A stretch of 64,000 nucleotides of DNA, from positions 122,533,875 through 122,597,874 of the forward strand of contig CM034546.1 of NCBI GenBank assembly GCA_020055645.1, written 5' to 3'. The DNA comes from Tomocerus qinae. Lineage: Eukaryota; Arthropoda; Collembola; Entomobryomorpha; Tomoceridae. Of the stretch, positions 20,111-63,685 are shown in pieces. Below the pieces are notes generated by a model. It saw only the letters and a list, made by a program, of their open reading frames with translations, did no database searches and had not been told where the DNA came from. A program made the translations under genes and the position numbers. Each line of letters starts with the position of its first letter. Position 1 is the stretch's first letter.

Positions 20111-20239
20111 ATGGAGCAACAACAAAGAAAAATATTGGAAAATTTGGATTTATTGACTAGCCTGACTGTAAATTTTCCTGGAGTTCTCGCACTGGCAGTT
20201 TCATCTTCTCTGATCAACTCCGTCGAAAAGGAGATCATT
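20111..20239 (+). CDS. Tandem-CARD gene exon 1: helices 1-3 of CARD 1
   Basis: 43 codons starting MEQQQRKILENLDLL and ending EKEII, directly before the donor GTACGT. The end in phase 0 corresponds to the same domain position as the end of exon 2. Confidence 0.75.
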
Positions 20240-21040
20240 GTACGTAAAGAAAACCTTTTAACCAAAGTATCGACTAATATTAATGTTTCCACAAAGTTTA
20301 TCCTCAATTTCATCGCTATAATTCTTGAAAATACAAAATTAGGGGATTAATTGTGTAGAAAAGGGGTTAAAGTTGAGTATTTTACGATAGGAATAAATTG
20401 AAGGAAACAGAATGATTTAGTACTTAGTTGTTTGCACTTAGGTATGTAATGTACGTGTAGGAACTGTATTTTCTTCTTCTTTTCTAGAGTATCCATTATC
20501 ATTCAGTGGAGGAGAAACTGAAAACCCTCTATCTCGTCTCCAGCGGAAAAAGTTCGGATGCACTTGACAGAATAATAGAACTTCTTCAAAAAACAGGGAA
20601 CAACAAGGCGGCTAACATTCTACTTGACTCAGAGGGCGAACGGAATGACAAAATGGACGAGAATCACAAGGCATTAATTTTGAACAACTTAGACAAGCTG
20701 AGCAGTCACACGATGAACTTGCCTATGGTTTTCTCTTACGCCTCAGGCTTAGAACTTATTACTGGCAAAGAAAGAGAAGTCATAGTAAGTATTTTCCAAA
20801 TAAAGAAACCCATAAAATAGACTAGAAAATCATTTTCATTTGTTATTTGTAACTTTTTAGATTGACAACTTTAGCTGTACAAATGAACGATTTTCCGAAT
20901 TTTTTAAACTTACAACAAAGAAAGGACCAGCTGCTTACTCTAAATTAATTAATGTTCTCAAAATGACGCAAAACAATTGGGCTCTGGATGTGCTGCATTA
21001 CAGCGAACCTGATGCAGCAGAAGAATTTATCGACCACTAA
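20111..21040 (+). CDS. Tandem-CARD protein (two death-fold domains, nothing else)
   Basis: Three exons, 20111-20239, 20488-20784 and 20861-21040, encode 201 residues. The introns are 248 and 76 nt, with GTACGT/TTTCTAG and GTAAGT/TTTTTAG sites, both phase 0. CARD 1 spans about residues 5-93 and CARD 2 about 100-191. Each begins with an (I/L)LxNLDxL-type first helix, passes S-x-x-x-(T/M)-N-(F/L)-P and a Glu/Lys segment, and ends with a helix resembling the last CARD helices: DALDRIIELLQKTGNNKAA in the first, AAYSKLINVLKMTQNNWAL in the second. CARDs are about 90-residue adaptor modules that pair with the CARDs of caspases, apoptosome proteins or immune receptors. With no caspase, NACHT, kinase or BIR region, this would be an adaptor or decoy. 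The start ATG has A at -3 and G at +4, and no ATG lies in the 70 bases upstream. The matching intron positions in both halves imply exon duplication. The fold call is from sequence pattern only; another death-fold subtype such as DD or DED is possible. Confidence 0.75.
20488..20784 (+). CDS. Tandem-CARD gene exon 2: rest of CARD 1, linker, start of CARD 2
   Basis: 99 codons after acceptor TTTTCTAG. It holds the C-terminal helices of CARD 1, a short acidic linker (DSEGERNDKMDE), and the first helices of CARD 2, ending EREVI before donor GTAAGT. Confidence 0.78.
20861..21040 (+). CDS. Tandem-CARD gene exon 3: rest of CARD 2 and stop
   Basis: 59 codons and TAA (21038-21040) after acceptor ACTTTTTAG. 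It encodes the later helices of CARD 2 and a short acidic tail ending EEFIDH. Confidence 0.75.
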   Translation: MDNFSCTNERFSEFFKLTTKKGPAAYSKLINVLKMTQNNWALDVLHYSEPDAAEEFIDH

Positions 21041-36070: not shown

Positions 36071-36124
36071 ATGTTTACTTTCTAAATGGGCAACATGAGA
36101 AATCATTGGAGAACGATTCGATAA
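36071..36124 (+). other. Two short upstream ORFs before receptor B
   Basis: ATG at 36071 opens a 4-codon frame ending TAA at 36083-36085. The next base begins ATG at 36086, which opens a 12-codon frame ending TAA at 36122-36124, 16 bases before the receptor start. If transcription starts near 35919, both would be in the leader and could lower receptor translation. Confidence 0.4.
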
Positions 36125-36140
36125 CAAACGATTGAGAACA

Positions 36141-36637
36141 ATGGCGGATGATTTATTTGTATTTTCCCAGCTTGTGCTGAATAGTTCTTTGCTGTCAGGA
36201 ACTGAATATTATGATAATACTTCAGTTCCCATTTTTAATGAAACAACCTCAACTGCAGACACAAATTCGACGTTTTCTTTGCCACCGCAATTCACAAACA
36301 TTAGTTCTAGTTCAAAGGCGTGTGTAGTTGTCTACTTGATTCTCTTCTGCATAGCGTCAACAGGAAATCTGTCTGTTTTCATTACAGTCTACCGACAGTA
36401 CCGAAGAGTGAAATCAAGAATTTCCCTTTTGATCCTTCACCTAGCTGTAGCGGATCTCATCGTCAGTGTCTGTTTGATTCCCATTGAAATCTTCTGGAGA
36501 ATTTTTATCCAGTGGTATGGAGGAAGTGTGTTGTGCAAACTTTGTCAGTTTTTTCGTGCTTTTGGGCTTTATCTCAGCTCTATGGTCTTGATTTGTATCA
36601 GCTTCGACAGATTTTTTGCCATCATTTTCCCTATGAG
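36141..36637 (+). CDS. Receptor B exon 1: N-terminus to end of TM3
   Basis: Starts [10 protein letters not shown]. It is the only ATG in the open frame after the in-frame TGA at 36096-36098. It ends in phase 2 in the Arg codon after [10 protein letters not shown], with donor GTAATG. Confidence 0.9.
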
Positions 36638-39600
36638 GTAATGGTTACATTTTTTAGGATTTTAATCATTTTCTTTCAACAATAAGTACCAATATTTTCT
36701 TTCATGGCCAGAATATCAGCAAAAATTCAGTAAAATTAGAAAATATTCCACGGAAATGGCCGAAGAGAATGAAAACAATATTTTCTTCTGGTGAAAGTTT
36801 TATTTGTAATTATGGTAGGCGACTAGCCTAAAGAAGGAGAAAGTACCCAAAAGGTGTTGCTGATATTCTGAGATCATAACATTATTGTTTTACCATTAAT
36901 TACTAATCATTACTAAATAAATTACTATCACTTTCAGGGTAATGGAAGGCATGCATCGGGTCAAGGTCATGCTTAGGACAGCATGGTTAGCGGCCTTCTT
37001 ATTTTCTGCACCTCAGGTAATTGGTTTCTCTATTTTCTCACCAATGGTTGAGTTTCTTATTATAAGTCTCTGGTGGATGGGCGACCTCACTAAGGAATAA
37101 TTCATCGTTATTGTGCTCAATAGATGTCCCACCACTGCATTTGGCTTTACATGCACGTTACCTTTAGTGCAGTGGTGGGGCATCTATCGAGCGCAATAAC
37201 GATGATTATTCCTTAGTGAGGTCGCCCATCCACCAGAGACTTATAACAAGAAACTCAACCATTGCCATTATTTAATGAAAATATTGTTCTTTAATTTACA
37301 ATCATTTGGTTGTACGCATAAAAAGGTAGTAGGCATAGGTATTATGAAAACAGGATACAATTTAAAAACGAGTACTGCACACTGCACAGTCAAAATCTAA
37401 GAAATGCAATGTTATTATAATGTTCGGTATTGTGAAAAAACAAGTCTTAGTGACATCTTGCCGGAAGAAATTTTTGTTAGTGAAATAGTTTACTACTTTG
37501 TAGAAAGTTCTTCAAATCTTTCTTGATGACCTTCATAACGCCTCCAGACAAGGAATTCGTACACTTGTAACTTGGTGACTACTACGACGAGGACGACTAC
37601 GAGTAGGAGTAAATTCAGCCATATACAGTCAGCCACTGCATTTATCAGTCATTGTCTAGATTCTAGATTGCTTGGAATGGTGGAATGGAATAGTGCTGTT
37701 TTCGAGATGACTTTCGGAAGTTGCAGTACGATTATATATATATTGTATGTTAGCCCATGAGTCGATTGCCGAGTGCCATATGGCTACAGGATACATAACG
37801 ACTTGCAAAGCGGTCTACAAGATGCTATACACAAATGCAAGACTTGTAATAATAAATACACAACGATGTTAAGGTACTGTGAAAGTTGTGCAACGAATGT
37901 ATTTACATTCCAAAAGTGCAACAAAGATTTTATTCACGTTCTGCAAAGTTGGTCTTAAGACCAGACCAAAATAAAACTAGTTTCATGATACTTATGAATG
38001 AAAAGTATCAGCCTCTATTTAGTGTACTACTCTCTAGATTATAATTCAGACACTTATTTGCATATAAATACCTTTTGGGTATGCAAAGTGTCTTTGTTTT
38101 AAGCTTTATTTACACTGCTGGTAACAATTCTACACAATTGCAATGATTTACATGCCAGGGCACCGCAAAACGTTTCCATTTACTGATACCTAAATAATTT
38201 CTAAGAACTAAATCTAGTGCGTAAGTAAAAAATTAAGTAGATAAGTAGCCTTTGTAGCAAAACTATTGTCTTTTATCCACATAGCTATTTTGATCAGCTC
38301 ATAACACTTTAATGCGCTAAGTATAAAACAACGAAATTTACCACAAAGCTGGTGAATCCAAGTTTCATTTCCCGAGAGTACTACAACTTCAGTCATTTTC
38401 TATGATTAAAGGAATAGATTTAATGTAAAATGAATATCTCTCTTAATGAGTTTCTGCTTGCATATTTGTGGGAAATTTAGGCTTGTGGTTTTATGTTTCA
38501 TCGTAAGCCATTAAGATTTACTTCCCTATAGTCCCCCAAAAACATATATCAAGACCTAAAGGAACTGCAACTTGCAACTCTGGTGCCCCACGCCAATAAT
38601 GTTGAAAACACTCCTAGACATGCAAATACGATGCTTATGTAGTAATCTGTATACTATTACCTCTAAGTACATTTTCATGCCATTGTGATGGAAAGGACTA
38701 GTCTGTGCTGAAGTTAGTTTTGTCAGAAGGTTACTCGGCAATTGTGGTAAATACGATACGATCTGTCCTGCAATGTGCAATCTTTGCGAATTCTGTTATA
38801 TACTATATATACGATTTTATTCCTTCCTGTCGACCGACGCCGACCTTCTAAAAATGATGCAACAACTAGAAACGTGCTGCACAATTTACATTTCCTAAAT
38901 CATGTACAACCATTTATGAGGTAATAAATCTTACATGAGCCTAGTAAAAATAATTAGATGCATTGCAGCATTTATTTTATTGATCCAAGGGTATTATTGT
39001 AATATGCAAAGAAGACACTCGATCGAAATGAGCTTCGGTATTTTGTTTTCCGAGTGGCGTCTTCATTTTCATTGTTCTGCTTTTCGAACTCGAACAATAA
39101 ATTGTGATTTTGTGATCTCTTCTTTCCATATATAGTAGAACAAAGAACAAATGTTCAATTCATTATGCATTCCTAAATATGTGAATAAATGTTTTACTAA
39201 ATGGTACTTGCACAGGGACAACTGTATTCATTATTCGTAGAATAATCTTTTATTCAAAATGTTTAAATCGAATGCTAACTGATACTGATAGATGCATTAT
39301 GCATATGTAAACCTTATCGGTCAGACACGTGTTATGACATTGAACTTTTGTTGACGAAAAACATTTTGGACTAATCATTGTCTTTTAACATTGATAACAT
39401 AGCGAAATATCTCTCCTTAGACATGAAAGTAAAGTACGAGAACCAATGAAAGGCAAAAACTAATGAGATCAGCAGCGACGGCTGTTTTTAGCTTAAGTTG
39501 TTTGCTTATACATAATAGAGTTAACAAATGAAGCGAGAATAGAGTGTACCTAGTGCTAAATTAAGAAGACTTGTACAATTTTGAAAACAATCCAGACCTT

Positions 39601-45600: not shown

Positions 45601-48600
45601 GATAAAATTGGTAATGGTGATAGTGTCGTTTAACACCCTTTACAAATGCATGGTATAAATAATACCAAAAATATTTCTTACCTCAAAGGTAATAGGTTTT
45701 CGATAGATATAAAATGAGATATCTTTATCTCTATTGTACATTCACACACTTTTTTGGAGTATTTTAGGTACTAAATAGGGCTGAATAAAATTGTACTTAC
45801 AATAGCAAATCCACTGTCTATCTCACAATTCTCAGAGTGTAACTTCTTATTTCAATGTCGGATTTTAACAAAACAGATCGGCTGACGATTAAAATTTCTA
45901 AGTAGTTTGGACTTGCAATTTTGCGAATATTTTATTCGTACTTCTTCTTTGGTTTTTAAAAAAATACCTTCCGTTTATTGTCAATATTGCTACTAGTCGG
46001 CAAACCTATAATGACGAGCTTATGTAACTCTCTATGAAAACTTTACGGTGAAAACACAACTACTGCCAAATTAATGGGCTGGCATTTAAAACTGCTGTGG
46101 CAGATTCATTTAGTAATTGAATTATTGTAATCATTTTCAGGGAAAAGTATTGAACAAATAAAGTTCGTGCTGTGAAGAGAAAATTGGATTTACCTAGAGG
46201 TAAAGCCAGCCAGCTTCTAACCATTCGATTTGTATCACATCGTATAATATTACAAAGGGCCATTGTGCTTTGCTGGAAATTGTCCTTATCTGTTTGCATC
46301 CGGTAGAAAATGTTGGGTGGAAAAGCCCAACGACATCAAATAAGGGTAATGTAATAACCTTTTACACATCTATATAGGTGATGCAATAAAATGATGAAGA
46401 AAGCACATCTAGTACATAATAGTTTAATAGCATCTGAAATCGCAGGTTTTCGGGTTTTGGCAAAGTTGCAGGGAAACAAGGTATGGTAGGCATTCCTTAA
46501 ATAATCGATTTGTGATGACGTGACTGCTAAATTGTAGATCGTAGGTATTTAACTCTGTAGGTATCTTAAAATGGTTATGGTAAAAACTTTTAGTTCAGAA
46601 AGTTGTTTCCATAAATCTTTAAATTAAAGTTTCTAATTCATTCTATCTCCCATTTCGAATTACACAAAAACTACAATTGGATTTAGCAGAACCTGATAGT
46701 GATTCTTTTCATTCCAACTCACATTCCTGCTCCCAATTTTCTGCATTTTCTACATTGCTTAACTACCTAGTAGCAAATACCTACGTATTGAACTTACTAT
46801 GTAGAAGGTATCAACAATGTTGATGTAATTATAAATACTGACACTGTGAATGTCTGTGAGTTAAATGTTAAGTTTTTTTTTGTTGTTTGCAGACAATCAT
46901 CTTCGACGTGGTGAGTCATCCCGAATTCCCGGCATTCAGGCAGTGTGTTACAAAATCATTCCTCTCGAAGCCTGAAGACTTGAGACTGTATAGTATTTTT
47001 TCTGTTTCGGCCATGTACTTTGCACCACTCATCGTCATTATTTTCACGTACACGATGATCTCATGTAAGATTATTCGCAAGTCTAGAGAACAGACCTCTG
47101 GAGATGCACAAACAGATCAATCGCTTAATAACGTCTCTTCACATTTTCGAAGTACATCTGGTAAGATCAATTCCTTCATTTGAACATCTTTTAAAGCAGA
47201 ATTTTATGCTTGCCCAATATTAAACAAATCAACGTACGAGATCAAAGTTTATATTGCTAGACTTTTGCTAATGCTACATTTAATTTACTTTCTCTACTGA
47301 CGTCAATTTCTGTAATGCAATGATTTATCTTCTGTAATTGAATAGAGCACCGATATATTATCTAGCTATAACATTGTAAGTGGATACTACTACTGCAATG
47401 CTCATGAATTTTGTTATGGGAATTTACTGAACGTTATGTAACTAATCTTATGTTACCTTGTGTAACTACAAGAAGAAGAAACTTTACACTACATAAAGAA
47501 AGTCAACGTGCATATCGTATTACTATACTTTCTCCGTTCTTAGATTTAACTATTTCACTAACTTTCACCGTACTAAAATTTCTTCGGGGTGGTTATACAT
47601 GAAATGGATTAGCATTAAGCTCCACCATGTTTTTCGCGATTTTCCTTACCCGTTCCAGTATTACTGAGTATAATAACAATTTCAGATTTGCTTTACATTA
47701 AGACACATTATCCTCTGTCACCATTTCTATCTTTTTCGTTACTTATTTCCAGTAAAACTTTACCTAACCTTTACTCTCTCTGATATTAAAGAATTATTAT
47801 TTTTTCTGATGCAATGAAAGTTAGAAATTCAATAATTGAACTACTTAAATCCCCAGATAACGATTTAATTCATGGCCAAGAATATCATTTCCAAATATGT
47901 TTTTAAGGTTAAAACAGATATGGGGAATTGACTCCCAAATCACCACCAAAGTTTTTAATGACCCTGAACATTGAAATGTAATGTGTGCAGCTGCAGATGC
48001 AAAAGTAGACTACTTGCAATTCCCCAACCTACATTATTTTCTTTTAATCAATTAAGTTCGTTCATGCATTGTAAGTTTAACGTAGTTTCTCCTGAACTCA
48101 ATTCAATTTTGATGCCTACGATCCTTATGCTACTTCTATCATATTATCTCTCAACTTGATCTCATTATACATCTTTCCTCTCCTCAAGCAAAGGTCTGAT
48201 TTTGTCTAACAAACGAAGGTAATCATTTTTGCTGCCATTATTTCCAACCAAGACCAAGATCATAATGGAAAATAGTAGTTGTTGCATAATGATGTGATGC
48301 AGTTCTGGCACAGAGGCGGTGTGATTTTACAGGGGCAGGGAATTACCAATGCTTCCAAAAGTCGTCCAAGGATAATTTCATTCTAGATTTACATAACATT
48401 TTGAAAATAAATATTACTTTTTAATTAATAAATATTAAAATGCAATTAATTGTACTTACAGCATTTAAAAGTAATTGATTTATTAGATTCTGGATTCCAG
48501 CATTAGTTAGCCTACATAACCTTAATACCATATTATCGTTCCGCTGCCACAGTTCTCTCTTTGTATTCGAAAGACAATGGGTCATATGTTGCAATACAAA

Positions 48601-51600
48601 GGCTTAACTTCAGCGCAAACTTCGAGTCGAGCAAATCAACGTGGGAGGTCCATTGTAATGCAACATATGATCCATTGTCTTTCGAATACAAAGAGATAAC
48701 TGTGGAAGCGGAACCATAATACCACTGCAAAGTATCCATACAAGCAGGTAGTTCCGTAGCTCCGGTGATTCCCGGTTCCTGTGAAGTCGCATCGCTACCA
48801 CCTTTCTGGCATTTGAGTTGAAAGAATGTTTGATGTCAGCTCACAAAATGAGGCGGCACTCTTTTGACAATATTATCACTCTTCACTTATTTCTCATTCT
48901 CATCAAAGACATTTTTAATAGGGAAAAAGTCTGAGAATTTCATTCGTTCCACATAAGTAGCCGTGCTAGACTATATCACACAAATATACACTATAATACA
49001 GTCTCTCAAAACTAAAGCTCTTCATAACCTTACAATATTAATGGGTAAACTTTTAGAGGGCTGTAAAAATAATTATTTAGGCAGTAAAAATAATTTTATT
49101 AGGCAGTTTTTTTAAGGCAGTAATTTTAATCAAGTGGGGCAGTAAAAAACAATTGCGATAGGCAGTAGAACCAATAATTAAGGCAGTAACAAAATAATGA
49201 TATTATTTATATAGTTAAATGAAGGATTATTTCAATTATAGGTCACTTCTAGGATTAATTCAATGTGAATTCAATGTCAGTATTTAAGGTAAAGTAATGA
49301 AAGTATCAGTGTAATCAAAATTTATGGTTTCACAAGTGCTTTAGATACGCCTGGAGGTCGTCTTCGCTTAATTGCAATCAATATCTGCTTAACAATGGGT
49401 GGAAGGAAATGTGAATACTGAATACCTAATACGTACCTTGTTTATTTTGGCAATGGCATTGATGTGTTTACATGTATAAATCTTTTGAAAAAAACGGACA
49501 TGTGCATAGTGAATTTTTATGATTGTCAGAGGTGTGAATATAACATGCCACATGGAAATTTCAGATGACAAAATCCTTCAAAAGTTTTCCACTTTTTACA
49601 GCCATTAGGACTCATGTAAGCGCTGATTACGTATGAAAACATTTTTTCTGTTAGTTATTTCGAACTAAAAGACAAGATATCTGTTGCTGTTTAGTTTATA
49701 TACAGCATTATGGACATGCTTTCGGTAATTGACAAGCTTAAGTAGCCTTTTACTAGACATAAGCACCTTAAAACAGGGTTATCTTCGTCACGAGTCATAC
49801 AGTCCAAAATTTTAAGTGAACATGTTCTATTAAAGCACATATAAAAAAAAATTTTTTGGTACTGCTTTTAGGATTGGTTCTACAGCCAATTGCATTTGTT
49901 TTTACTGCCTTTCTAATAAAAGTTTACTGCCGATTAAAAAACTGCCTAAAAAATTTCTTTTTACTGCCTAAATAATTATTTTTACAGCCCTGTAAATTGG
50001 TACCCAATATTAATTAGTATCCCTCCTTCAGAACGAATCTCTATCCTTAGTGATTCGCTTTGATATGGCTTTATTGTCAATCTACAAAAGAAATGACCGA
50101 TAGATAACCCGGTAGTGTCCATTTCTCTCAACGAAAATTGCTACACATGAATTTTGGATTTTAAAGGAAAGACCACAAGAAGAATAAATATTTCTGCTAG
50201 CATTATTTAAACATGGATCTTACTTGGCCCAATCTATTTGAAATGATCTATAAAATCTATAATCTCCATCTCTCATTGTATTAGCGGAGTCTATCCATTC
50301 ATAAATAATGATAGGACGCATCCGTCAATGATTATTCGTTCTTCCACAGTACAGTCAATCTCTCTCCACTCTTTCCATTCTTTCCAATGCCATAAAATAG
50401 GATCCTGTGTTAGGGTAAATTTGGTTATGCTTGTCTGTATATACTGCTGAATTCATTTGTTGTTTTTACAAAATAAATTAATGGTTATCATCACTTGAGT
50501 TGAAATTCATGAAAATGCATTTTAGGCAGGAATAAAAACTGAAATTTTTTCATTAAAAAAGACTCTTCGCCCCAATCATCTAAGTATTACAAATTACTCA
50601 AAATATTGATGCTCTACCACGTAATGCTAGTGTTTATCTAGTTTTAACTACATGTAATCAATCATTTTATGTAAATCGCTGTCGCTACCATACGGTATGT
50701 AATTCCAAAGTATGAGAGCAGAAGAATCATCAAAGCAAAATGTAGCAAATTATATGATATCAAAGATTATTTTCATAAGACTCATTTTATTATTTAGCCA
50801 TAGGCCACAACAAGCCATAGCATTTCATAATAATCCGCTTTATAATCTAAAATGTTGAAATTCGTTTGAGGTCAAATTTTTTCAAGCGTGGTAAAAGTTA
50901 TATAGAGGTAGGTTAATATACACGTGGGTTTTATATGTGTGGTATTACGTAGAAATCTTTTACATTTGGTTCATTATTAACTTGGTATTTGAGATTACTT
51001 CTGCTTTGCGGTTTAAGCTTTTTTTGTGATTGCTGGAAGTGGAAGATAGAAGCATTTGTTAAGTTAGAGATGTGTTTATGTAGTGTAGGTATAACCACAA
51101 GAGACATAAGTCAATGTCGTCTGCAATTAATTTCAATGTACCCCAATTCGTATGTATTCTTGTGTCTTATACAAACAGCCTTATATATTATTATATGACA
51201 ATGAATAATATTATTACCTATAAAATAGTATTTTCCCATCTGCTATCATTCCGATAATGATTCGACGACAAGATTAAGTATTTGGTACATAATTTTTATT
51301 GTTTCAGTACTTAAAACCTTCAAAGGTTTTTAGGTATAGATTAATTAAAGTATAGGAGCCTTAATTACCTTGCTCTAATAATATTGGTTTATTTAGTGAA
51401 AGGTCGTCTGCACCTGAAGCGTATCAACACAATTCGGTTATCTCCTCGTGTTGATAAGGAAAACCATTGCAAGCATCCACAGCAGATTTCGGAGGAGAGG
51501 AGTGGGGAAAGTGAGAGTCCAGAATCAAAATATAAACCTCAGCAGTCGATGGTCTTGCGAAGAAGTGATAACGCTGCCTCGAATATTTCTCGAGCGAAAG

Positions 51601-54600
51601 GCCGCACTCTCCGTCTGACAGTCATCATCGTGTGTGTGTTCGTATTCTGCTGGACTCCTTACGTCGTTATGACTTTGTGGTAAGTTGTAGTAAGGCCAAC
51701 GCATCATTAGTCTTCCATATAAATTGACAAAAAAATCAAAAGTCCCATAACTTGCCGTACATCTTCTTTTGTCAAATACATTCTTCCGTTCCACTCTGAT
51801 TCCTAGCCAATTGTGCAACTTTTTATGTTTCCTTCTGCTGCAGCAGGTACTTCAGTTTCCTTCACACACAATAGCTTTATAGCAACTAAGTGCTTTTGTC
51901 TGTGCTGTGAGCCAGCAACCGAGATTCAGAGCTCAAAAAACGTAGGTCGTAAGAATATGAATGAGTAGCATTTAATAGCTCGTTTTGAAATGCATCTTCA
52001 GACTTGTGCATATTTTGCATCAGATTCTCTGCTTTGCTAGTTTTCCATAAAAGAAACTTCAGATTTATATTCAAGATCCATACAATCACGCATTCTGTAA
52101 ATAATGGTAAACCTTTTACCTTGACTCCTTATTTTCTCCTTGACTCTTGCGGATACATCTACAAGATATATTAGAAGCAATAACTAACTAACCGCAAACT
52201 TTTTTTCTAGATCATTTCATTGTCTTCCTCTCACTAAACTTTTCAGATAAAGTTATTGTATGGAGTATTTACATTAGCGCACAAACAAGATCCGATAATA
52301 ATACCAAACAAACTGTACCTAAAGTACTCAGTGCAATGCACGGATCAGTGATACCTATCTCATAACTTTCTCATTTATTGACATTTTATTCTATTTCGAA
52401 TCCACTCTCCTACTTTTAGATACTATGCTTTACTAACTTAATAATCTAGTTTGAAACTTATTTTCGGAATGATCATCATCATTTATATAATCGTGTTGTT
52501 TGAGTTGCGCAATGAAATTCGGTATGACGGTATGTATTTACCATCGTGTGTTAAATTGCCGCTCTGATAACGCAGCTAAGCAGAACCCAAGTCTTAAACT
52601 TTACCTAAATGTGGCAAATCTCAACAAGTCCATATATTTCATAACAAAACAGTTCATGCATTCTGTATGCAAATATTTTATTTCCTGCTTTCAGTAGTGT
52701 GCTTAAGGTTTTTATTACTTCATGTGCGGCAAAATTTAAAATTTGGCCATTTACATTGAAATTTGCACCAGAATACTCACTAGCTTTATTATAACAGGAC
52801 CTAGGTCCTGTGACCTGCTAGTTATGAGTATGAGCAAATAAATATCGCAACGCAAATAAATAACTTTGCCTCCTAAATAGACCTTATACATAACTTTGAT
52901 CAATGGATCTATGGAATTTATAATAGAGATTAGTAGATTTAAATAATAAGCATAATAGGCTTTGAATGATAATTTCGATTGCCATTTGAATGCATTGATG
53001 TTCATTAACAATCTATTCTTTGAAATTTGTGAACGTTGTTACACGTTGTTACGAATCCGGATTTTAAATAATCTCCTGTGGAATGCGATGTTACATTTAC
53101 CTTTCCGAGCTTTTTGGCATTCACATAAATTAGCCTTCTCTGTTCCACAAAATACCTTATTTCAACCGTTTGTATTTCGCAACTGTGCTGCTGGAATGTA
53201 AGTTCAAAATGTGGGTATTTAGCAGTCTATTTATATACATGGGCATGTTGATAACAATACATAAGCCATTGCATTGCTTGCTTTAACATGCCACATACCT
53301 AATAGTACTTTGATACATTCTGTAATGACCACAAGCATCTCTTAATAAAATGGATTTTCAGTACACGTTTGAAAACATAATATATAGTGGAATCCAGCTG
53401 TGGCACTAAACATTTATATATGCTAATAGTAATTTTGATAGCAACTTGCACATGGTGCAATACATATGTTGCTTATTTTAGTTCTAGGAAATAACTTATT
53501 CCACTTATATCACCATTGAGAGATTTAATTTGAAGTTACTGAAGTATATTATAATTGCAATAGGAGGAGTATAGCTAATGAGAAGGGTATTAAATATACT
53601 TTGTGCAGCCCATAGAAATTTATTATAGTTAGCCTTGTTTGTTTGTATCAAAAGATGGGAATGCTAGATTACAGATAAATAATACGGTACCCTTTAAGTG
53701 TAGTGAATGACAAAAGATAATAGAATTGGGGAATTCGTAATGTAAAATATTTCAAAAGACCTTAAATTGTGGTATTTGAAAATTGTATCAGTAAAGACAC
53801 AAATAGGATAAAACAGATTTAAATCGTATGAAAACTACTTTGGTGAATTTGATTAAAGTGGTAATACCTTTTGAAGAAATAAAGTAGGATTCTGCCAGTT
53901 GCACTGAAAATAGTTGAATAATATGTTAAACCTGGGATGCTTCAAAGGAAATTTCCTAATTAAGTTCACTAAGTACCGAGTTGCGACCTACAAATTCGTC
54001 TCATCTTATCCTCTACCGGCTCTACCTAAAATACTCTTATCTAGCTGTTCATGAAAATAATACCATTATTTAAACTTATTTTAGGGTTGTTATAACTGTT
54101 TATATTGCCATGTGCAGTATTTATTACCCTATTCAGCTAACTTTTCCAGCTCATTTTCCCATCAATTTATCTTTTGTTCTTGGGTGGTGAAGCAGTGAGC
54201 TCTGAAGGAATCGTGACTGGAGCAGAATAGGCCACCCAATTAGCTTGGTGGGTGGTCTATTGATTCTCAATTACGATTTCCTCCCAGCTCACTGCTTCGC
54301 CAGCAAAGAACAAAAGACCAGTTAATAGGATTAAAAATGAACTGGAAGTTATCTGAATATGATTAATACATGTTATTATGGTTCCGCTGCCATATTAATC
54401 TCTTTGTATTCGAAAAACAATGGATCATATGTTGCAATACAAAGGCTTAACTTCAGCGCAAACTTCGAGTCGAGCAAATCAACGTGGGAGGTCCGTTGTA
54501 ATGCAACATATGATCCATTGTCTTTCGAATGCAGAGAGATTAATGTGGCAGCGGAACCATAATACATGAAAGGGATAAAAGTTATTTTAAAATCACTTTT

Positions 54601-61415: not shown

Positions 61416-63685
61416 ATTAATATAAATCAAAATTATATCTAGTAATTCCCGTATTTCTGCACAATAGTTATATTTATGGCACGGGTCATTAGAAACACGA
61501 AAAATTAATGATGGTCATGGTCATGATCAATAGTGAAGTAATTACTACTAAAGTCGGTGTGCATGTATGTAATCTCAAGATTTATGAACAACATCATTAA
61601 TCATTCTTTACCATTACTATTATTCTATAATAATAAGACCTTAACTATATACATTCACTTGGTTCGAGGAGAATTCATCGAAAGAACATTCGTAAATAAG
61701 GGGCTAAATCTGCTACTGCTGAATTAGTATCTGTAATAAGTTATTTGTTTAGCATAAATTGAAATAGTTGGAAATGTTATGTCGTTGTTGTCTGAAAACA
61801 AATTCCCAAATAGTGAAGTCCCAAAGGGATTCTGCTACAAACTATGGACCGTGGAAATTAATAATTCACGATACGATTTAGTTTGTAGTAACTAGTGTAT
61901 TATGCAATGCAGTTTGCGACATTTACTTAGGAAAGAGTTGTTTACGAAAATGCAAGCGTAGGAAAAAGTTTTTGATTAAATCTCGTTATAGTGTATGAAT
62001 AAGGTGTTGTTGACCTCGCCAGACTCATCTTTTCTCCTTTGAGACGCGGTCAAGAAAAGAATCAAATAGCACTCAGAGAGAAGATAGTTTTCGTGTTTTG
62101 GTGAATACCCTCGGTGCCTGGGCTGAGTATTCTTGATCTTTCATCCTTCACATCTATACAAAGTACTCTAACCACTACATCAAGAGTCAAGAGTTGGATA
62201 TTTTTAATAGAGGTTTCGAAGGGTGTTTTTGTTGGTTTGAGCGAACTCAAGTAGCACAGTGTGTATATAACCTTTTGAAATGATTTTGATTGAATTGGAG
62301 ATTACATGAATCTAGGATACACATCAGTGGTTACAGTGAAACTGAAAGAGTGTGTACACAGGTTATTAATTTTGTGCTGCTGTGAAATTACGATTGATGA
62401 CACAAACACACGTGTTATACATAAATACTATAATTTTATCTGCAGTAATGCTAATAGAGCTGCATGAAACCTTTTACCTAATTTTCCGATTCCACGAATA
62501 AAACATTGGGATTTAAATCTAGGTCGAATGATGAAAACATGTGAGTGAAAGTTCATTGCACAAAAGAAACGTTTAGAGGATGTAAACTTCAAATGTAATT
62601 AGTCCTTTTACTCAGATTGAGACACTCATTGCAATTAATATTTCCCTGCCAATTGCACTGCACGACAGGATCACAGAATACGTAATAACAATGCAAATGA
62701 AAGAAATCTTACTCGGAAGAGATATATGAATGGAGTGTCACGAATAGTGTCCCGGGTTCTTTCTACTTACCGGAGATTTTAAAGGTTTTAAGGACTCCTG
62801 CTGAAATAATATACTTTTAGTATTGTATCCATAGTCAAGAAGCTATTAGGTAGAGGGAGGGGGTATAGTATTTTATTGTACGTTCTAATAGGATAGGCTT
62901 ATAATATTGTTATTTATTATATTAAGCTTAGAATTCTATTTCTGTCCTCCAACTCTAGCGTTGATCTCACCGGGAAAGGAAGGACATTGTTTTGGATAGC
63001 AGGAAGGAAGGAAGATGGGGAATAGAGAAAAGGGAATAGTTTCGTTTTAGTTGAAGAGAACTAATAGAGAGAAGTCTTGAGACGATCACAAGTATCATAT
63101 TTTAGCTTTTTCAGCTTTGTTTGTTTGTTTCAGGTTCTCGAGTTTATCTGATGTGACGGAACATCACAGAAGAAAGACGATCTAATTTTGAAGGAAGTAG
63201 AAGATGTGAGAGAGAGAGAGGAGTCACAAAAGGAGCACCAGACTACGAGGCATGATGATAACAATAAGAACATTATCCGATAGAAAAATAATAAGAGTCA
63301 CAACAAACACTAAAATCCCTATTATCTCTTTCTGTTTAGTATAACATTTGATCTTGTTAAAAGGTCAAAATATTATATTCCCTAAAAAATAAGGCGTCTC
63401 TGCCATAAAAATGTTTTGTATTTCTCAAATATCAAGCACATTTTCTTTTCAACTTGCATGATGAATAAAAGTCAACGGAGAAGAATGCCGGATTTGCCAT
63501 TGGTTGAAGAGGATATGTCTGCAATTGTAATATCCTGCTGATTAGTAGTCTCGTTTCGTTTTCCTGTCCATCAACTTCTCACCACCCGAGAACACTTTTC
63601 TTACGATTTGAACTGCAATTTCAGTTCCATACACTCTTTAATAATTCTATCCCCAGCGCCACTATCATTTGGCCCCTACTTGATG
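61416..63685. other. Intergenic, no gene seen
   Basis: AT-rich DNA with a short AG-dinucleotide run near 63210. No supported exon or structured repeat. Confidence 0.4.

Follow-up and report, generated by a model that had tools for sequence, protein, structure and literature searches.

A three-exon gene of Tomocerus qinae predicted to encode a protein of two tandem CARDs only

Does a short gene on contig C1 of Tomocerus qinae encode a protein that consists of two CARDs and nothing else, and if so, where might such a protein come from and what might it do? The window, i.e. the whole stretch of DNA analysed, comprises 64,000 nucleotides (C1:122533875-122597874) of a 334 Mb genome. The joined double-CARD open reading frame (20111-21040, plus strand) has 201 codons followed by TAA, and both junctions are in phase 0. 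A three-exon gene of this length and phase had been proposed in the sequence-only reading and is confirmed, with minor corrections, by the reading frames and the GT-AG introns; the donor of intron 1 is GTACGT. Because of the in-frame TAA 5' of the ATG, coding does not continue upstream through exon 1. By analogy with other CARDs, exon 1 probably corresponds to helices 1-3 of CARD 1. The features are collected in Table 1.

Table 1. Features of the double-CARD gene and its flanks (window positions).
Feature	Position	Strand	Remark
In-frame TAA	20102..20104	+	2 codons 5' of ATG
Exon 1, start ATG, 43 codons	20111..20239	+	residues 1-43, first part of CARD 1
Intron 1, phase 0, GT-AG, 248 bases	20240..20487	+	at common CARD intron site
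Exon 2, 99 codons	20488..20784	+	residues 44-98 (remainder of CARD 1) and 99-142 (start of CARD 2)
Intron 2, phase 0, GT-AG, 76 bases	20785..20860	+	equivalent site in CARD 2
Exon 3, 59 codons and TAA	20861..21040	+	residues 143-201, remainder of CARD 2
Possible poly(A) signal ATTAAA	21164..21169	+	six-base match, weak alone
Further possible poly(A) signals 3' of stop	ATTAAA 21252; AATAAA 21563	+	motif match

The exons were also assessed by codon usage. With a score trained on six segments (two Apaf-like genes, the CARD exon of a caspase gene on C4 and three receptor exons), which is slightly circular as the C4 exon is homologous to the double-CARD gene, exons 1, 2 and 3, scored in frame, were outscored by 1, 1 and 4, respectively, of 587 stop-free stretches of at least 40 codons elsewhere in the window. 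The top score in this null set belongs to a 43-codon open stretch at 63152-63280 (+), perhaps an exon of another gene. The observation of a two-CARD gene is real.

The joined protein was divided into W1 (residues 1-98) and W2 (residues 99-201). Their local alignment extends over the whole length at 32% identity. Its score of 125 compares with a mean of 26.8 for shuffles (z 20.3) and was reached by 0 of 400 shuffles. This indicates that the two halves are homologous and bears out the earlier claim that they align to each other. Two of the motifs named with that claim are present, the ILxNLD-type first helix as ILENLD in W1 and ILNNLD in W2, and L-x-x-T-x-N-N as LLQKTGNN and VLKMTQNN, whereas the turn described as S/T-N-x-P is actually T-x-N-x-P (TVNFP in W1, TMNLP in W2).

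Assignment of the two halves to the CARD family was less direct. No Pfam family matched the joined protein above its cut-off. CARD (PF00619) appeared in the second half (residues 132-185, E 4.4e-4) with 20.7 bits, below the curated membership cut-off of 23.9, CARD_2 in the first half (residues 38-90, E 0.024), and DUF5101 at E 0.0051, again below its cut-off. Searched alone, W2 matched CARD at E 0.002 and W1 had no match in Pfam. A phmmer search of the PDB with the single double-CARD protein gave no match, and when W1 and W2 alone were made into a profile, three sequences were returned at E up to 10, with no CARD among them. AlphaFold, applied to exon 2 alone, gave helices with a mean pLDDT of 50. 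Relatives in the same genome exceed the PF00619 cut-off, e.g. the protein of a gene on C5, probably a second double-CARD gene, with 59.4 bits, and it is through such relatives that W1 and W2 are linked to CARDs, Pfam alone being weak.

Profiles were also considered from which W1 and W2 themselves had been excluded. One made of the C4 caspase CARD and three Apaf-like CARDs gave 23.5 bits for W1 (best of 4962 scored shuffles 13.1; 0/4962 as good) and 36.3 bits for W2 (best of 4752 scored shuffles 9.2; 0/4752 as good). With ten other CARDs the values rose to 41.3 and 53.3 bits, equalled by 0/4958 and 0/4800 shuffles. The three Apaf-like CARDs by themselves recognised W2 (16.0 bits; 0/4829 shuffles as good) and W1 marginally (12.3 bits; 1/4978). 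In pairwise comparison with the C4 caspase CARD both halves were well separated from shuffles (W1 z 11.1; W2 z 14.9, score 101, 31% identity). No clear separation was seen for W1 against two of the three Apaf-like CARDs (17/400 and 36/400 shuffles as good) and for W2 against one of them (23/400).

A further profile, A1, built from six CARDs including W1, W2 and a caspase CARD, was compared with the PDB. Among the best 60 of 73 sequences (E up to 10) caspase-9 came first at 9e-7, and the matches listed after it include BIRC2, Dronc, CARD8, CED-3, RAIDD, ASC and Apaf-1; MDA5 was found at E 0.01 and ICEBERG at E 0.25, and 2 of the best 60 rows were the non-CARD phosphatase SSU72. A1 holds stronger CARDs than W1 and therefore supports the family rather than W1 by itself. 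This profile connects the family with solved CARDs. As to the earlier CARD assignment itself, Pfam is weak, but the same-genome profile of caspase and Apaf-like CARDs ranks both halves higher than every shuffle scored, W1 becoming marginal when the profile is restricted to the Apaf-like CARDs. We conclude that the assignment of both halves as CARDs is supported by these comparisons.

The gene structure offers a separate character. In 12 of the 13 CARDs checked, a phase-0 GT-AG intron directly follows the same aligned Ile. These are W1, W2, the C4 caspase CARD, C5A, C5B, C4S, C4T, C1S, APa, APb, APc and L022; the exception is L001 (C1:88543260), in which the site is read through within one exon. 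The CARD-like pieces at L037, L049, L045, L044, L024, L032 and L030 are outside this count.

Genome searches returned 9 matches with the double-CARD protein as query (3 being the gene itself) and 3 with the CARD family as query, and the resulting CARD census is a lower bound. At C4:11949829-11950775, CARD exons are followed on one strand and within 2 kb by caspase-domain matches; these exons were left unjoined. The caspase sequence retains the motifs SHG and QFCR, which we take to be the positions of the catalytic His and Cys. Two CARD/NB-ARC genes are located at C1:70.66 and 70.69 Mb, with NB-ARC above cut-off (2.1e-13 and 1.6e-8). In both (L019 3633-6674, minus; L020 5428-7505, plus) the CARD end and NB-ARC share one very long exon, and a second, partial CARD lies immediately upstream in L019. 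CARD-caspase and CARD/NB-ARC genes are hence present in the same genome as the double-CARD gene.

The C5 gene matches Pfam CARD at 3.7e-16 in two stretches; its assignment as a double-CARD gene is probable, the joint between the CARDs requiring a GC-AG intron and being uncertain. Three single-CARD genes, C4S and C4T on C4 and C1S at C1:27.085 Mb, have two exons each and end in a stop (Pfam CARD 0.0045 for C4S and only 0.11 for C1S). C4T (L017 7783-8489, minus) and C1S (L012 1056-1665, minus) are nearly identical on different chromosomes and represent a recent duplication. L022 carries a C-terminal CARD and may belong to a larger protein. The genome probably contains at least five CARD-only genes, two of them double, and because of these others the double-CARD gene is placed as a member of a host CARD-only family. 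Its earlier description as stand-alone is to be qualified accordingly, as the gene has company.

Peptidase_C14 gave 38 exon matches in the genome, several of them clustered (C2:36.57-36.58 Mb, C1:76.76-76.77 Mb and C1:108.86 Mb), and the caspase family is enlarged. Some of its members have CARD-like pieces upstream; such pieces occur near six other caspase loci (L037, L049, L045, L044, L024 and L032; E 1.3e-6 to 0.016); at a seventh, L030, such a piece appears only at E above 1. The 140 Mb contig C1 also contains a stretch of mitochondrial type with the gene order nad2-cox1-cox2-atp6, in which TGA encodes Trp (L013, G000:C1, match 36670928-36672268). Pieces of cox1 are found elsewhere in the genome (8 matches in all), and the stretch represents nuclear copies or an assembly join. 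Judged by eye, about 65 bases between its cox1 and cox2 resemble tRNA-Leu; no tRNA was called by ARAGORN. With this probable tRNA-Leu the gene order points to an arthropod, perhaps a pancrustacean.

A tree of 11 CARDs, without the partial APa, was calculated with 200 bootstrap trees and has mostly weakly supported branches. C4S, C4T and C1S group strongly (98/95), W1 and W2 with weak support (72/63), and C5A and C5B were grouped in 0% of the 200 bootstrap trees. By sequence, the CARD-only family appears nearer to the CARD of the C4 caspase than to those of the Apaf-like proteins.

Does the protein really end where the reading frame ends? In the genomic DNA the frame opens after a stop and closes with one, and no non-CARD domain exceeds a Pfam cut-off. 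Together with the homology of the halves and their recognition by CARD profiles, the stops on both sides uphold the claim of a protein made only of two CARDs. None of the 38 Peptidase_C14 matches falls within the window, which separates the gene from the CARD-caspases, and the stop after CARD 2, together with the absence of helicase matches from the 10 ORFs scanned in the window, separates it from the RIG-I-like receptors. Three of these 10 ORFs match a rhodopsin-type receptor and one FTH below threshold (0.032); none matches a CARD-partner domain. The receptor exons (36099-36641, 46872-47183 and 51345-51683, plus strand) extend over about 15 kb, beginning 15 kb downstream of the double-CARD gene, with Pfam 7tm_1 at 7.5e-18 and, for the later two exons, 2.4e-5 and 2.6e-6, below cut-off.

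Tandem CARDs are usually part of larger proteins, as in RIG-I, MDA5 and NOD2, and this counts for reading the locus as part of a larger gene, or as one of its isoforms, with unseen exons that add caspase, helicase, BIR or kinase domains, all the more as genomic DNA is the only source of evidence. Yet the flanking stops, the lack of caspase and CARD-partner domains in the matches and ORFs just described, and the same ending, a stop after a CARD, in C4S, C4T, C1S and the C5 gene make a larger gene quite unlikely. Another alternative is a copy that is decaying or silent and has no function. The gene is known from DNA only, but all three exons are intact, the four splice sites fit the consensus, codon use is coding-like and the halves still align end to end, which makes this explanation very improbable. 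Capture from a virus has a precedent in the iridovirus CARD-only gene; the available text of PMC4457926 describes an anti-apoptotic CARD protein of a grouper iridovirus. A viral origin is nevertheless hardly credible here because the introns lie at the site common to the genome's own CARD genes; a scan of IMG/VR with the double-CARD protein, sensitive to close relatives only, found no relative.

What might such a protein do? CARDs bind CARDs, and judged from its sequence, the double-CARD protein probably acts as a modulator of caspases in cell death or immunity; the adaptor or inhibitor role suggested before is a reasonable functional guess. We favor a decoy, with a probability of about one half. 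The protein would be cytosolic, and both of its CARDs would bind those of initiator caspases, of Apaf-like proteins, or of both. Lacking a protease, an ATPase and a sensor domain, it would occupy these CARDs, and in this way lower caspase activation or set its threshold, as human ICEBERG, COP and INCA do, the tandem arrangement allowing two contacts per molecule. In the available text of PMC3775265, human single-CARD proteins are described as binding caspase-1 and inhibiting it.

A two-CARD protein may, however, either compete with caspase and Apaf-like CARDs or bridge them. It could then act as a bivalent adaptor or nucleator which seeds or bridges CARD assemblies and promotes immune signalling or the activation of caspases, in the manner of the RIG-I and DRH-1 2CARD units or of the CARD pair in NOD2. 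As far as the available text of PMC11260149 shows, the tandem CARDs of C. elegans DRH-1 alone suffice to signal, as do those of RIG-I, and when expressed ectopically both activate and do not inhibit, those of DRH-1 turning on immune genes (PMC11260149). Parts to be recruited exist in the genome in the CARD-caspase and CARD/NB-ARC genes. Nonetheless, the protein contains no domain that could regulate nucleation, and the family is nearer to caspase CARDs than to the RIG-I type (caspase-9 at 9e-7 and MDA5 at 0.01 with A1, a profile that includes a caspase CARD), so that we consider a nucleator rather unlikely. The decoy is preferred over a scaffold on two grounds: the family is close to the caspase CARD, and the genome also contains single-CARD-only genes. 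An argument from charge, with a basic caspase CARD and acidic partners, was clean with nine domains and failed with more: the pI is 9.3 for the C4 caspase CARD, 8.0 and 4.8 for two other caspase-linked CARDs, and 4.8 to 8.6 for the CARD-only domains.

While the type of gene is unusual, its domain and probable role are familiar ones. A literature search that covered few subscription papers found no announced invertebrate double-CARD-only protein. Tentatively, and with somewhat less confidence than would be needed to call it an even chance, we suggest that an arthropod lineage, along with its many caspases and Apaf-like genes, evolved CARD-only regulators of its own, both single and tandem, out of CARDs of the caspase type. 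They would be an independent counterpart of the primate CARD-only proteins (COPs), with a bivalent form unknown among those. If this is true, an arthropod CARD-only family that includes tandem members and shares its intron site with a caspase CARD would be an independent case of CARD networks gaining free-standing regulators.

Among known systems, the RIG-I-like 2CARD units (RIG-I, MDA5 and C. elegans DRH-1) share the two tandem CARDs, whereas the helicase and C-terminal domain of these receptors are absent here and the family profile is nearer to caspase CARDs. NOD2 likewise has two adjacent CARDs, but these continue into NACHT and LRR, while the protein described here ends after CARD 2. According to the available text of PMC8998645, there is no RLR in the arthropods examined there. 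Initiator caspases (caspase-9, Dronc and CED-3) have a comparable CARD, caspase-9 topping the PDB matches listed for A1, and so does the C4 caspase, by its alignment with W2 and the common intron site; in contrast to all of these, the double-CARD protein is without a caspase domain. The primate COPs (ICEBERG/CARD18, INCA/CARD17 and COP/CARD16), which the available text of a 2013 review describes as recent and restricted to higher primates (PMC3775265), are comparable as small CARD-alone proteins related to caspase CARDs. They differ in being single CARDs, whereas the present protein has two and belongs to an arthropod, and its W2 shares no more than the 31% identity given above with the C4 caspase CARD; the T. 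qinae CARD-only family has the intron site of that caspase CARD too.
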